Assembly (NCBI RefSeq): GCF_000447755.1
Contig: NZ_AUNE01000045.1
Location: 124,001-188,000, forward strand
Length of the DNA stretch: 64,000 nt
Direction of reading: 5' to 3'
From: Bacteriovorax sp. BSW11_IV
GTDB lineage: Bacteria; Bdellovibrionota; Bacteriovoracia; Bacteriovoracales; Bacteriovoracaceae
The notes beneath the pieces were generated by a model that saw only the letters and a program-made list of their open reading frames with translations, made no database searches and was not told the DNA's origin. A program made the position numbers and the translations under genes. Below are positions 58,336 to 64,000 of this stretch, piece after piece; the first letter of the stretch is position 1, and each line of letters begins with the position of its first letter.

Positions 58336-58518
58336 AATTTTTTTGCCCACGATAAATTTCATATGAATTTAACCCTTTGAAACTACTGATGAAATTCTCC
58401 GGTAAGAAAGTGTAACATTCTAAGAGTGCCAGTAATTTGACACTCACATTTGAATTGGCTAGCATTTTTTAAGGCCAATAATTTTGGTCTCACACACACC
58501 TAAATGGAATGTTGCATA

Positions 58519-60066
58519 ATGAATGACTTTGATTTCCTTTATTCGAATCTAGATCAATTTTCTGACCAGAATTCAAGTGATTTTGAAATAGAGGTTCCCG
58601 ATATTGTCCTAGTAGAAGACGATGTCGTTCTAGGGAAAACAATCAAAAAGTATGTTGAAAAAACCACCAAACTCAATGTTCACTACGTAAAAGGTCCATC
58701 AGAGTGTTTAGAACTACTCGCAGATGTTGATAAGAGTTCTAATTTTTGTTTAATTTCAGATATTAGTTTTGAAGATGGTGGAGCGGATGGACTCCTTCTA
58801 ATTGACCTTCTAAAAGAGCGTGGCCTTAAATTTACTTCTATTGTTATGACTGGCTTTGCATCAATTGAAACAGCGATTAATGCCACTAAAAAAGGTGTTT
58901 ATCACTATCTAACTAAACCATTTGATCTCGATGTTCTTACAGAACTTATTCTTAAGGCCTATGAAGAAGTTTATAAAATTGATAAGAAATATCTGACGTC
59001 TGATAAGGCACAAGTTGAGGTGGTTAGGGAAGAAAGAAGAGAGAGGAGAAACTCTTTCAAAATTGAGGCCCCAACTAAAGATGATATGTTTTGTGGGATG
59101 ATTGGTCGCTCAAAAGTTATGAGAGATGTTTTCGAGCGCATTCAAAAAGTTGCTGCATCAGATTCTACTATTTTGATTAATGGACCATCGGGAACAGGTA
59201 AAGAACTCGTGGCCAGTGCCGTTCATAAACTATCTCCACGAAACAGTGGAGGAATTGTCTCTGTGAACTGTGGAGCTATTCCTGGTGAGCTACTTGAGAG
59301 TGAGCTCTTTGGTCACGAAAGGGGCGCTTTTACGGGTGCCATTTCTGCACGTAAAGGACGCTTTGAAATTGCAGATAAAGGAACAATTTTTTTAGATGAA
59401 ATTGGTGATATGCCACTGCTACTTCAAGTAAAACTTCTTCGTGTTCTTCAAAATAGAACTATTGAAAGAGTGGGAAGCACTTCTTCAATGCCCGTTGATG
59501 TTAGGATCATCACCGCTACACACAGAAATTTAGAGCAAGCAGTATCTGAAGGAAATTTCAGAGAAGACTTATATTATCGCCTTAATGTTATTCCGATTAA
59601 AGTTCCGTCCCTCTCAGAAAGAAGGGAAGACATTCCATTGCTCATTTCATATTTCCTATCGCGATTTGTGAGTGCTGATGGAAGAAACAATGTTGAGTTT
59701 GATGATGATGCTCTAGAAGTCCTTATGACTTATGATTGGCCAGGTAACGTAAGAGAGCTAGAAAATTTAATGGAGAGACTTGTTATCCTTAAAGGTGGAT
59801 CTCTTGTTAAGGCCTCTGATCTTCCTGGTAAATTTCTTACTCATTGTTCAAAGCGTTTTTCATTCTCGAATGCTGAAACAATGATCTCTCTTCCTGAAGA
59901 TGGAATTGATCTTAAAAAAGTATTATCTGAAATTGAGGACTCTCTTATTGAGCAGGCCCTAGAGAGAACTTCAGGTAATAAGAATCAAGCATCACGCTTA
60001 CTTTCAATGAATAGAACAACCCTAATTGAGAAAATGAAGAAAAAAGGTCTCTCTTTAGAGGTCTAA
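58519..60066 (+). CDS. NtrC-family sigma54-dependent response regulator
   Basis: A 515-residue transcription activator: receiver domain (residues ~25-140, phosphoacceptor Asp in LISDISF, acidic pocket VEDD, TGFAS, LTKPFD), AAA+ domain with Walker A GPSGTGKEL, sigma54-contacting GAFTGA in ERGAFTGAISARKG, Walker B GTIFLDEIGDMP, R-fingers in FREDLYYRLNV, and a C-terminal Fis-type helix-turn-helix (NKNQASRLLSMNRTTLIEKMKKK). The start is taken at the ATG at 58519 (MNDFDFLY) rather than 58504, which has no ribosome binding site. It should activate sigma54 promoters; partner kinase is not in the window. Flagellar or stress control is possible from the flgB edge. Confidence 0.94.
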   Translation: MNDFDFLYSNLDQFSDQNSSDFEIEVPDIVLVEDDVVLGKTIKKYVEKTTKLNVHYVKGPSECLELLADVDKSSNFCLISDISFEDGGADGLLLIDLLKERGLKFTSIVMTGFASIETAINATKKGVYHYLTKPFDLDVLTELILKAYEEVYKIDKKYLTSDKAQVEVVREERRERRNSFKIEAPTKDDMFCGMIGRSKVMRDVFERIQKVAASDSTILINGPSGTGKELVASAVHKLSPRNSGGIVSVNCGAIPGELLESELFGHERGAFTGAISARKGRFEIADKGTIFLDEIGDMPLLLQVKLLRVLQNRTIERVGSTSSMPVDVRIITATHRNLEQAVSEGNFREDLYYRLNVIPIKVPSLSERREDIPLLISYFLSRFVSADGRNNVEFDDDALEVLMTYDWPGNVRELENLMERLVILKGGSLVKASDLPGKFLTHCSKRFSFSNAETMISLPEDGIDLKKVLSEIEDSLIEQALERTSGNKNQASRLLSMNRTTLIEKMKKKGLSLEV

Positions 60067-60099: not shown

Positions 60100-60290
60100 A
60101 CCCTTTGTTAATTTGATAAAAAAATCAATGTCAAAGTTTTGAGCAGAAAAAAAATCCCCTGAGCAAATTTTTCCTTTAAAATTTTCTAAAACCCTGTAGA
60201 ATTATTTTTGAGGACAGACTTTAGGAAGAAGTCAAAATTATCCTCATAACTTATCTTACGACTATTTTGAAACAGGAAGTTTCAGGAAGT

Positions 60291-62933
60291 ATGAATAAAA
60301 CAATTTTCAAACTTTTGACATTCACATGCCTTTTTGCACCTTGCCGAGCAGGATTTGCCCAATATATTGAGCAAACAGAGAATAATGATTTCTTCAGGCT
60401 TGCAATCCACTCTGAGGCCCCTGAACAACTTATCGTAAGAAAGAAGGGCAGCACTGTAGAGATTAAAACTCTTAATATGGAACTCTTTGATAAGATCGTT
60501 GAAGATATGAAGAAGATTTCATTAAATAAGAAGTACTTCTCTAACTTCAATGTTCTAGAGCCTAATAGCGAATCTAATGTTCCTTCAATTGTTATTAATC
60601 TATCTCAAAGTTCTGTTGAACTATTTAGTTTCTATAAAGATAGAGAGAAAAAGAAAGTTATCGATTTTTGGATTGATGCCGACGCAGTAGGAACTAAAGA
60701 AGCAGCAACAGCTCCTGCTCAAGTTGCGAAAGCTGAGCCGAAGAAAGTTGTTGTAAAGACGGCGGTAAAAAAAGAAGCTCCTGTTCAGTCACAAAAAATT
60801 GCTATTCCATCTAATAATGATGATTTCAAAGATTTCAGATATGGTGCTTCATTCATTTGGGATTATGAACCATTGTCACCGCGAATTGTTAAACCTTTAA
60901 ATCTAGAAAGAAAAACTCCAGAATATTTCTATCCAATTAAAGAGAGAGATTTCAAAAAGAGTGAGAAAGAAGCACATCTACAATTGGCCATTAATCTTTA
61001 CAATAAGAAGAAGTGGGGGCTTATGTATAAGTCCATTACTCTTTTTCAAAAAAAATATGGTGATGAAGAGCAGATTGATCTTATCGAATACCTGAAGGCC
61101 AATGCAATATTGCGTGAAGAGCTTGAGAAGGGAAAAACGAAGCCAGTTAAAATGGCCATTTCAATGTTCCAAAACATTGTAAGTCGTACTAAAGACTATG
61201 ACATGAGAAAAGGGGTTAGTAAGTATCTACTGGCCTACTATTTTGAAAATAAAGAGTATGTACAATCTCTCGACCTTGCGAAGAAACTTTATGTTGATTC
61301 AAAAGAAAATTTTGACTATGAACAATCTGATTCAGCTGCAGAGTATATTCTATTTTCACTGGCCAACTTAAATCAGGTAGAACAAGTTAAGCAACTTGTG
61401 AGTGAAAAAACGATTCAGAAGCTTTTACCAAAACAAGTTTTAATGGCCTATGAAATGTTTTCTATGATGAAGCTTGGTGAAGTTGAAGAAACTATCAAAT
61501 ACTTCGAAAAAGTAGAGAAGACGCTTACGAAACCAAGACATGAAGCCATTCTTTATAATGCAGCTGAAGCCTACTTTAGAATGGGGAATTACGATAAGGC
61601 CGTTCGTCTATATGATGATTTCTTAGCTGAACATTCTTACCATATCAAATCATCAGAAGCTCGTTTAAGAATTGCACTATCGTATGATCTTCTAGAACGT
61701 GACCCTTATAAAGTAGAAGAACTCTACAAGAATGCAATTAACAGATCTCAAATTCCAGATATTAGCTATGAAGCACGTATTCGTTATGTCGGTCATAGAA
61801 GTGTTAGAAAGAAGAAAATTGATAATTCAGATAGAGAAATTCGTGTTTTCTTAGATAACGATAATATTGAAAAACTAGATAAAGACCTTAAAAAACTACT
61901 TTGGTTAACAAGGCTGAGAATCTTTATTAAAGATCAAAAATTTGAAGAGGCCCTTAGCTTCTTGAGTGCTCTTCCTCTTAAAACAATGAAGGAAGAAGAA
62001 AGAAGAGTGTATGAAGCTGACGGTGCTGAAATCGTTTACGGAATTATTGAACATAATTTTAAGGCATCAGAATATGCTAAATCTTTCAGGGCCTACGAAA
62101 TTTATAAAGACACTTATGTGAATAAAGTGGCCACTGATCCTTACTTGAATTACATCGTTGCTAAAAGTCTATTGAAATTAAAACTGACTGACCAATTTGA
62201 AAAATTTATGACTCATCTAAGAACACTAAAAGATGAAGAGCAAAAAACTTTTCCAATTTGGGTAGAGAGAAATGAGTTATTTAAAATAAATGATGTTATT
62301 GGTGAACTTACTCTTCTTAAAAACTTACAAATGGGTGAGTGGGATGAGGCTGAAAAGAGTCTTGCTAAAGTAACGTTAAGTAATGAGCTTAAGAAGTTTT
62401 ATTTCAGCGGTCTTATTGATTATAACTTAAAAAAATACGCTTCTGCAGAAGAGGCCTTTGAGAAGTATATGACAGCTCCAGGTGCGAGAATTGCAACTGA
62501 ACCAATCGAAGTCGCAGAGCTATTGAAGGCCTATACTGACTCAATTTATGAGCAAGGAAAGTCTGAAAAATTCAAGAAAGTAGCTAGGGCATTACTTGAT
62601 GATACGGAGTCGTTAAAAGGCTCAAATACCTATGTTCAAGGGGTTAGAGAGAGATTGCAATACCTCTACCTTGAAATGACTGGTGCCGAATTGAAACCGG
62701 ATTTTGTAACTTTTTCAAAAGATATTACAGCGTTCAAAAAAGACTACCCTTCTTCCCAATATCAAGGGAGAATAAACTACCTTCAAGGCATGATGTTCGT
62801 GAAGGAAGGAAAGTTTAAGGAGGGAAGATTAGTATTTGAGGAGATTTTGAAGGATTCAGAATCGAGTGAATATCTAAAAGAAATGGTGAGGGCGGAATTA
62901 TCCCTACTACAAATTAAAGAAAGAAAAATATAA
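60291..62933 (+). CDS. Large exported TPR-repeat protein, 880 aa
   Basis: An exported protein of about 880 residues. I use the ATG at 60291 (MNKTIFKLLTFTCLFAPCRAGFA, a signal peptide); an in-frame TTG at 60267 has weaker support. After a basic linker with Lys/Ala/Pro-rich stretches (KEAATAPAQVAKAEPKKVVVK, ~residues 125-175), many degenerate helix pairs of TPR type follow (for example YNAAEAYFRMGNYDKAVRLYDDFLAEH and FYFSGLIDYNLKKYASAEEAFEKYM), up to the last unit LQGMMFVKEGKFKEGRLVFEEILK. It lies between two sigma54-type regulators and before flgB; it might be a scaffold of a periplasmic complex, but function is unknown. Confidence 0.8.
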   Translation: MNKTIFKLLTFTCLFAPCRAGFAQYIEQTENNDFFRLAIHSEAPEQLIVRKKGSTVEIKTLNMELFDKIVEDMKKISLNKKYFSNFNVLEPNSESNVPSIVINLSQSSVELFSFYKDREKKKVIDFWIDADAVGTKEAATAPAQVAKAEPKKVVVKTAVKKEAPVQSQKIAIPSNNDDFKDFRYGASFIWDYEPLSPRIVKPLNLERKTPEYFYPIKERDFKKSEKEAHLQLAINLYNKKKWGLMYKSITLFQKKYGDEEQIDLIEYLKANAILREELEKGKTKPVKMAISMFQNIVSRTKDYDMRKGVSKYLLAYYFENKEYVQSLDLAKKLYVDSKENFDYEQSDSAAEYILFSLANLNQVEQVKQLVSEKTIQKLLPKQVLMAYEMFSMMKLGEVEETIKYFEKVEKTLTKPRHEAILYNAAEAYFRMGNYDKAVRLYDDFLAEHSYHIKSSEARLRIALSYDLLERDPYKVEELYKNAINRSQIPDISYEARIRYVGHRSVRKKKIDNSDREIRVFLDNDNIEKLDKDLKKLLWLTRLRIFIKDQKFEEALSFLSALPLKTMKEEERRVYEADGAEIVYGIIEHNFKASEYAKSFRAYEIYKDTYVNKVATDPYLNYIVAKSLLKLKLTDQFEKFMTHLRTLKDEEQKTFPIWVERNELFKINDVIGELTLLKNLQMGEWDEAEKSLAKVTLSNELKKFYFSGLIDYNLKKYASAEEAFEKYMTAPGARIATEPIEVAELLKAYTDSIYEQGKSEKFKKVARALLDDTESLKGSNTYVQGVRERLQYLYLEMTGAELKPDFVTFSKDITAFKKDYPSSQYQGRINYLQGMMFVKEGKFKEGRLVFEEILKDSESSEYLKEMVRAELSLLQIKERKI

Positions 62934-62975: not shown

Positions 62976-63908
62976 ATGAATAATGTTAATGTCGAACTTT
63001 TTGGAAAAGACCCTAAAGTAACAAAAGCGCTTTCTATCGCCAGAAACGTATCAGTTACAAAGGCTCCAGTTCTAATCACAGGTGAAACTGGTATTGGAAA
63101 GAAAACTCTAGGTCAGTACATTCACCAAAATTCTACTCGTGCAAATGGTCCATTTATTGTTGTTGATTGTGCAGAAGATGCGCAAACAGTAGAAAACAAT
63201 ATTCTTGGTCACAGAGATGATGAAACAGGACGTTTCAACAAAGGTGCTCTAGAAGCTGCAAACGGTGGAACAGTTCTATTTGCAAACATCGACGGTCTTG
63301 AAGACGAATTCCAAAAGAGAGTACACAAAATCCTTACTGAACTAAGCGATTACGATATCGACGTAAGAATTCTTGCAACAACAACTAAGAACCTTTCAAA
63401 ATTAGTTGGAGCTGGAAGATTTTACAGAGGTTTATATACATTTATTTCTCCAAACTCAATCAACCTAACTCCACTAAGAGAAAGAACAGCTGATCTTGAA
63501 ATGATCGCTAGACACTTCATCACTGAAAATGCTGAAGCAACAGTTGAGCTAGATGATTCTGCACTTAATAAAATTCTTAATCACTACTGGACATACAATA
63601 TTCAGGAACTAAAAGCAGTTATTGAAAATAGTCTTGAAAACCTTGAAGAAGATTTCGTACTTAACGAAGAAGCTCTAGAAATTGGTGAAAAGAAAGCTGT
63701 AAGTATGATCTCTGAAGAAGATTCAGAAGGTATTAGACTTATGTCTCTTAAAGAAGCTGAAAGACTACTTATCAAAAAAGCTCTTGTTCACACAAGTGAA
63801 AACAGAACACAAGCAGCTAAAATTCTAGGAGTATCAATTAGAACTCTTAGAAACAAAATCAATGAGTACAGAAATTCTGGGAACTCATATTTTGTAAATT
63901 TAAGATAG
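62976..63908 (+). CDS. Degenerate sigma54-activator homologue (AAA+ and Fis HTH)
   Basis: A 310-residue member of the NtrC-type family without a sensing domain. The AAA+ core starts at residue ~9 with Walker A GETGIGKKTL. The sigma54-contacting GAFTGA loop is absent: the corresponding part reads HRDDETGRFNKGALEAANGGT. Walker B, usually FLDEIGDM, is LFANIDGLED, having lost the Asp-Glu pair. The C-terminal helix-turn-helix (NRTQAAKILGVSIRTLRNKI) is intact. So it probably binds DNA but neither hydrolyses ATP nor contacts sigma54. AGGAGG precedes the ATG and flgB begins 22 bases on, suggesting a flagellar regulator. Confidence 0.88.
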   Translation: MNNVNVELFGKDPKVTKALSIARNVSVTKAPVLITGETGIGKKTLGQYIHQNSTRANGPFIVVDCAEDAQTVENNILGHRDDETGRFNKGALEAANGGTVLFANIDGLEDEFQKRVHKILTELSDYDIDVRILATTTKNLSKLVGAGRFYRGLYTFISPNSINLTPLRERTADLEMIARHFITENAEATVELDDSALNKILNHYWTYNIQELKAVIENSLENLEEDFVLNEEALEIGEKKAVSMISEEDSEGIRLMSLKEAERLLIKKALVHTSENRTQAAKILGVSIRTLRNKINEYRNSGNSYFVNLR

Positions 63909-63930: not shown

Positions 63931-64000
63931 ATGATTTCAGACGACAAAACTCTACAAGCACTGGCAGCGTCACTGAACTTTAGACAGATGAGACAGGAGA
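63931..64000 (+). CDS. flgB: Flagellar basal-body rod protein FlgB (partial)
   Basis: The last 70 bases encode an open N-terminus reading MISDDKTLQALAASLNF, then RQMRQE, with no stop before the window edge. The pattern (D-K-T-L-Q-A-L-x-x-S/A-L-N-F-R) is that of the FlgB start, which builds the proximal rod of the flagellar basal body. AGGGG lies seven bases before the ATG. Only the first ~23 codons are visible, so identification is from this N-terminus plus the adjacent regulator. Downstream sequence would normally bring flgC and fliE. Confidence 0.72.
   Translation, partial: MISDDKTLQALAASLNFRQMRQE

Follow-up and report, generated by a model that had tools for sequence, protein, structure and literature searches.

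Results

The window, i.e. the whole stretch of 64,000 nucleotides from Bacteriovorax sp. BSW11_IV that was analysed, ends in an operon whose first gene encodes a TPR protein (60291..62933, forward strand, as are all window features described here). It is followed by an open reading frame for a protein of 310 amino acids (62976..63908), which we refer to as the slot gene and which stops 22 bp 5' of flgB, as the first-pass annotation had reported. The flgB gene has its ATG at 63931 and continues beyond the window (63931..64000), being the first of flgB-flgC-fliE-fliF-fliG and then more flagellar genes. The order TPR gene, bEBP gene, flgB and flgC was conserved throughout the Bdellovibrionota. 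Upstream of the operon lies a gene (58504..60066) for an intact FleQ-like activator with a receiver, an AAA+ and a Fis-type domain. All six catalytic and contact features are present in this protein, in agreement with the intact activator noted earlier at this place, its best solved relative is FleQ (331 bits) and its HTH is also closest to that of FleQ.

The slot protein matched the Pfam models Sigma54_activat (88.6 bits), AAA_lid (AAA_lid_14, 33 bits) and HTH_8 (39.4 bits) well above the cut-off, and based on Pfam, alignment and an AlphaFold model it is a degenerate sigma54-activator homologue with an AAA+ domain, a lid and a Fis-type HTH, and without a receiver domain. The AlphaFold2 model, made with 26 orthologues in the alignment, had a mean pLDDT of 85.7 and in Foldseek matched NtrC1, PspF, FlrC (4qht among the top matches), FleQ and VpsR, indicating that the NtrC-type AAA+ fold has been kept. 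As Sigma54_activat and similar Pfam models still match such proteins well, their misannotation as sigma54 activators is likely.

Walker A (GETGIGK, aa 36-42, 63081..63101) is retained, and its pattern G-E-x-G-x-G-K is invariant in 68/68 orthologues. The Fis-type HTH (aa 255-299, 63738..63872) is homologous to Fis and intact, with 35 of its 45 positions invariant among the 68 orthologues and SIRTLRNK kept in most other families too. Alignment with intact activators revealed the losses. Where the L1/GAFTGA loop should be (aa 78-87, 63207..63236), about 8 residues of the intact slot proteins are missing and the sequence is GHRDDETGRF, compared to 'GYEKGAFTGADQRKIGKF' in the slot protein of G055. 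Walker B (aa 100-106, 63273..63293) is V-L-F-A-N-I-D instead of the x-F-L-D-E-I-G of intact activators, the Asp being replaced by Ala103 and the Glu by Asn104. Both arginine fingers have disappeared from their helix (aa 149-157, 63420..63446), where FREDLYYRL has become FYRGLYTFI, and the sensor II Arg is gone with the change of GNVREL to NIQEL. The first-pass annotation had called Walker A and the Fis-type domain intact and the GAFTGA loop and the Walker B LDE box lost, and the alignment bore this out; no equivalents of DE or GAFTGA were found elsewhere in the domain. Its expectation, from family knowledge, that the protein does not remodel sigma54 holoenzyme is supported by these motif losses, and the slot protein is, as judged from its sequence, unable to work as a bEBP by the requirements that are known.

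The families of the Bdellovibrionota are given here as anonymous codes (f1-f25), and named relatives (Halobacteriovorax marinus and other Bacteriovoracaceae) place f1, the family of the window, in the Bacteriovoracaceae, bacteria of the predatory type. A genome search found a close slot orthologue (49-84% identity) in nearly all sampled f1 genomes, and a related-locus search gave 38 additional loci. The orthologue of Halobacteriovorax marinus (L045) is 73% identical. When f1 members were scored for the six features, Walker A alone was kept in 43/43, save for one member that also has the sensor II Arg (lost in 42/43). GAFTGA was deleted and the arginine fingers were lost in all 43, and none of them has the DE of Walker B, where Asp is changed to Ala, Val, Ser or Lys and Glu to Asn; this Asn was found in 67/68 orthologues of the wider alignment. 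Between slot orthologues the pairwise dN/dS of the AAA+ core was 0.016-0.12 and the dN of the HTH was near zero (mostly <0.06), and the core has acquired invariant residues of its own in the 68 orthologues, e.g. K138-N139-L140-S141-K142 and R151. The slot protein is functional and under strong purifying selection, and the dN/dS together with the invariance of the HTH rejects a pseudogene. The invariance of Walker A reflects this selection and, as a sequence pattern, is suggestive of ATP binding.

The FleQ-like gene, the TPR gene and the slot gene remain linked in f1, even in aflagellate relatives, which makes a functional pairing of the slot protein with the intact activator plausible. Genus g32, where FlhA is missing in three nearly complete genomes, keeps the slot gene, a degraded FliF and both of the O2 sites described below, with O1 down to background. 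As the aflagellate genomes keep the FleQ-like gene as well, this co-retention singles out neither protein. The loci without FlhA and FlgC (L142:4642-7081, L081:4989-7235, L345 and L346) have a linked FleQ-like gene, a truncated TPR gene, the slot gene and a degraded FliF-like protein.

Of the 36 genomes whose slot gene is intact, 32 have a -24/-12 sigma54 site immediately 5' of the TPR gene. The same position carries one in 20 of the 21 genomes outside f1 with a degenerate slot gene and in 3/3 without the gene, at a background of about 5%, and in none of the 33 f1 promoters. Among the families with a degraded slot gene, f1 is thus the only one in which the sigma54 promoter has, by its sequence, clearly been lost. 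The RpoN gene is still present in the window genome, and TGGCAYN6TGCW sites occur there 47 times (6 in a reversed control), so that sigma54 is, to judge by these sites, still in use elsewhere in this genome. Most of the sites (L256-L285) lie between genes, and the closest gene downstream often starts with a signal-peptide-like sequence, which agrees with sigma54 control of exterior functions.

The operon of the TPR, slot and flgB genes has a sigma70-type -10 element (TAGAAT, 60197..60202) and no sigma54 site. In the second flagellar operon of f1 (fliL to fliA; fliL-flhA) TTGNNN-N15-18-TATAAT was present in 15/22 fliL promoters, in 18/22 TATAAT was followed by TTTTTGAC, and no sigma54 promoter was found in any of the 22. 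The candidate target promoters read TTGANN-N17-TATAAT at fliL and TANAAT at the TPR gene, and both main flagellar operons of f1 appear to be transcribed from sigma70-type promoters. Outgroup fliL promoters, a small sample (n=5), had sigma54 sites at three loci, in f6, f3 and f9, and no clear site in those of f7 and f8. The 5'UTR of the TPR gene contains two hairpins with AGGA in the loop, one at 60217..60233 and one (GAAACAGGAAGTTTC) at the ribosome-binding region of the gene (60269..60283), both of them possible CsrA sites by sequence. The two hairpins are conserved in most of f1 (equivalents in L045-L082), and a CsrA gene was present in every genome tested.

Two elements, O1 and O2, are common to the TPR-flgB and fliL operons of f1. 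O1 is a FleQ-type box, GTCA-N6-TGAC, which corresponds to the published FleQ consensus GTCaNTAAAtTGAC (PMC6120874, PMC10723142); in the TPR promoter of the window (60130..60143) the dyad is imperfect (GTCAAAGTTTTGAG). O2 is represented there by two GGNAAANTTTNCC-type sites, O2a (60146..60158) and O2b (60162..60174), the latter exactly 22 bp 5' of the -10, and the order O1 - O2a - O2b - 22 bp - TANAAT is rigid in TPR promoters. The GTCA-N6-TGAC box was found at exactly this spacing in 13/22 f1 fliL promoters (shuffled 0.03; other spacings 0-1). Sites scoring at least 9/10 for O2 were found in 26/33 TPR promoters (shuffled 1.2) and 15/22 fliL promoters (shuffled 0.7), and as both patterns were first seen in TPR promoters the shuffle test there is post hoc and the fliL tests are the independent ones. 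In four f1 genomes the arrangement O2b-N22-TANAAT had no second exact match beyond this operon. Genome-wide, GTCA-N6-TGAC was not enriched (31 vs 27 in the control) and therefore cannot be used alone for calling a regulon. Most outgroups had a weak O2 or none, although the HTH of their slot proteins is very similar.

O1 was first favoured as the site of the slot protein itself. The published FleQ consensus and the FleQ-like neighbour made this doubtful, and further against it are the TGTCA dyad that persists in the f6 genome L161, which has no slot gene, and the loss of O1 from aflagellate genomes in which the slot gene is retained. The simplest assignment would place the FleQ-like protein on O1 and the slot protein on O2, where another regulator could also bind. 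In the f1 fliL promoter (L291:317-440, L300-L321) a conserved TTTTTGACA comes right after TATAAT; it resembles the FleQ box which in the Pseudomonas pel promoter lies across the start site.

The slot protein is fully intact in ten families, f3, f8 (13/14), f11, f14, f15, f18, f19, f21, f22 and f25. It is degenerate in f1 (43/43), f6 (16/16), f12, f20, f23 and one f8 genome (L173), and the gene is missing in f24 and two further f6 genomes. Sequence comparison across these families shows that the f1 slot gene goes back to an intact sigma54 activator, which is still found in the same slot elsewhere in the Bdellovibrionota. The lesions vary: f1 has kept Walker A only, f6 proteins mostly have finger 1 and often sensor II, and f23 has both fingers and sensor II. 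Within f6 the protein shrinks stepwise down to an HTH-only form of 141 aa in one genome (L165:6104-6529, after orientation), essentially the HTH with a short leader. This form possibly represents a stage on the way from an enhancer-binding protein towards a Fis-like protein.

The best tree of flgB and flgC needed 6 changes. With the TPR gene included, f6 grouped with the intact f11 (SH-aLRT 97) and f23 with the intact f14/f18 (89), giving 5 changes. AU tests on flgB and flgC, which are short markers, did not reject joining f1 with f6 (p 0.32) or f6 with f23 (p 0.46). As these tests do not exclude fewer changes than the 5-6 of the best trees, we claim, on these sequences, at least three independent losses (L173 of f8; f12/f20; and f1, f6 and f23 counted as one), and five are likely.

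Discussion

We consider it probable, from the sequences compared here, that a protein which was once a sigma54 activator is now a catalytically dead regulator, bound to DNA at sigma70-type flagellar promoters, and that it probably works beside the adjacent FleQ-like activator. Such a protein would neither hydrolyse ATP in the manner of bEBPs nor contact sigma54, and would probably still fold and bind nucleotide; an invariant Walker A together with a dead Walker B may fit an ATP-bound state that does not cycle. DNA would be bound via the almost unchanged Fis-type HTH, and the protein would most likely be an ordinary transcription factor at sigma70-type flagellar promoters. Its best candidate site is GGNAAANTTTNCC, which the promoter of the TPR-flgB operon carries twice, with the nearer copy at a fixed distance of 22 bp from the -10, and it may act jointly with the FleQ-like activator on GTCA-N6-TGAC. 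For its own operon, the rigid, class-II-like placement of O2b close to the -35 region, together with a poor -35, speaks slightly for activation. At fliL, which has a good -35 and -10 and a TTGACA half-site beside the start, it would be as likely that the FleQ-like protein represses or forms a loop. In the literature on sigma54 and flagellar regulation in Bdellovibrio we found no paper on the slot gene.

The linkage of the FleQ-like, TPR and slot genes in f1 and its aflagellate relatives might also be expected if the slot protein were a hetero-oligomer partner of the FleQ-like protein, needed for its full activity and not opposing it, for which FleT of FleQ in Rhodobacter sphaeroides is a precedent (PMC7277832). 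However, FleT is described as a sigma54 activator at sigma54 promoters, and no flagellar sigma54 promoter was found at the two main operons of f1, which leaves this reading doubtful.

The first-pass annotation had suggested that the protein is kept as a DNA-binding antagonist or co-regulator of flagellar genes, possibly as an antagonist of the intact activator nearby. The selection on the protein agrees with its being kept, and a flagellar co-regulator is the best reading, whereas a sigma54 antagonist, alone or paired with its neighbour, does not fit f1 (0/33 TPR and none of 22 fliL promoters). Such an antagonist would keep flagellar sigma54 promoters down by occupying the enhancers of the intact activator or by joining it in dead mixed rings. 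A dead active site with DNA binding kept and an intact FleQ-like activator close by are consistent with it. However, the flgB and fliL operons of f1 both lack a sigma54 promoter, and with the finger arginines and Walker B lost the protein is not likely to complete the active site of a neighbour in trans, and we hold the idea to be unlikely. In f6, where the operon retains a sigma54 promoter and an upstream TGTCA dyad while the slot activator has decayed, such a role is possible.

The shrinkage seen in f6 would also suit a repressor or a nucleoid-type, Fis-like protein that uses only its HTH, with the AAA+ domain as a dimerisation scaffold. The HTH resembles that of Fis, and GGNAAANTTTNCC is similar to a Fis site. 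In f1, however, purifying selection on the AAA+ core is strong and Walker A is fully conserved, which exceeds what a bare scaffold needs, and in the four f1 genomes O2b-N22-TANAAT is confined to one promoter, making this explanation improbable. That the gene is a decaying relic without function might be thought from its many missing catalytic motifs and its absence from f24 and two f6 genomes, and is ruled out for practical purposes by a dN/dS far below 1, the 35/45 invariant HTH positions, the new invariant core residues and its retention in aflagellate genomes.

A dead, DNA-bound regulator of sigma70-type promoters, the reading that we prefer, has relatives among known proteins. GAFTGA-less relatives of bEBPs regulate sigma70 promoters without sigma54 contact (PMC10274813), and TyrR, DhaR and HupR form a recognised group of GAFTGA-defective homologues (PMC3162934). 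Like the slot protein, NtrC of Rhodobacter capsulatus, HupR, TyrR, VpsR of V. cholerae and Caulobacter NtrC combine an NtrC-type AAA+ domain and a Fis HTH and lack GAFTGA; they act at sigma70 promoters (PMC10274813, PMC3162934), the type that the candidate targets of the slot protein carry, and the L1 deletion of Caulobacter NtrC, 8 residues, is of the same size. ATP binding is required in R. capsulatus NtrC and hydrolysis is not, whereas Caulobacter NtrC requires both Walker A and Walker B (PMC10274813). Unlike this group, the slot protein also lacks Walker B, both arginine fingers, sensor II and a receiver and has a predicted flagellar target, and its intact syntenic orthologues and the promoter switch are visible inside one phylum.

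With FlrC, FleR, FlbD and FlgR the slot protein shares the position in a flagellar locus and the AAA+ fold, but it has no receiver, no predicted catalysis and no sigma54 promoter on its operon. FlgR of H. pylori is the mirror case, having lost its DNA-binding domain and kept its activator function (PMC3930126). Pseudomonas FleQ, which the adjacent gene product resembles, also acts at biofilm-gene promoters via GTCA-N6-TGAC-type boxes, sometimes with one box upstream and one over the start (PMC10723142). However, FleQ retains its ATPase, and the slot protein, whose HTH differs, is not FleQ. FleQ and FleT of R. sphaeroides are likewise two flagellar bEBPs in a single flagellar system, but both are described as sigma54 activators in a complex (PMC7277832), whereas in the present case one of the two is dead and the promoters are of another type than sigma54. 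Fis is similar in its homologous HTH and in the f6 forms that shrink towards a small HTH protein, and differs from the window protein in that the latter has a folded AAA+ domain under selection.

Tentatively, the locus may be seen as a natural experiment on the scale of the phylum: a single flagellar sigma54 activator would have been stripped of its remodelling machinery in several independent events, with its DNA-binding end left fixed. In f1 this would have gone together with a sigma70-type replacement at the main flagellar operons and a nucleotide-binding, dead AAA+ factor, and in f6 with sigma54 promoters that were kept and a protein shrinking to a Fis-like HTH. Sigma54 control of flagella is generally regarded as a stable module. 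In this one slot three states are seen, an intact activator with a sigma54 promoter, a dead protein with a sigma54 promoter and a dead protein with a sigma70-type promoter, and these allow one to read and test in what order enhancer-dependent control is lost and at what cost. They also trace in concrete terms how an AAA+ enhancer-binding protein could become a conventional or Fis-like transcription factor, and in an AAA+ protein that is dead yet invariant at Walker A the role of the nucleotide can be asked directly.

The window genome encodes other degenerate activator homologues. The second one (L085:4659-6257, contig C13; L007) is a GAF-AAA+-Fis protein of 532 aa, in which AGIVAG replaces GAFTGA and Walker B is LFLNNVD, with FREDLSYSL; its gene lies downstream of TolQ/R/A/B-like genes. 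A third (L086 / L009, C43:37261-37719) has a PilZ-like N-terminus followed by GAF, AAA+ and Fis domains, with LLHEV at Walker B and without GAFTGA.
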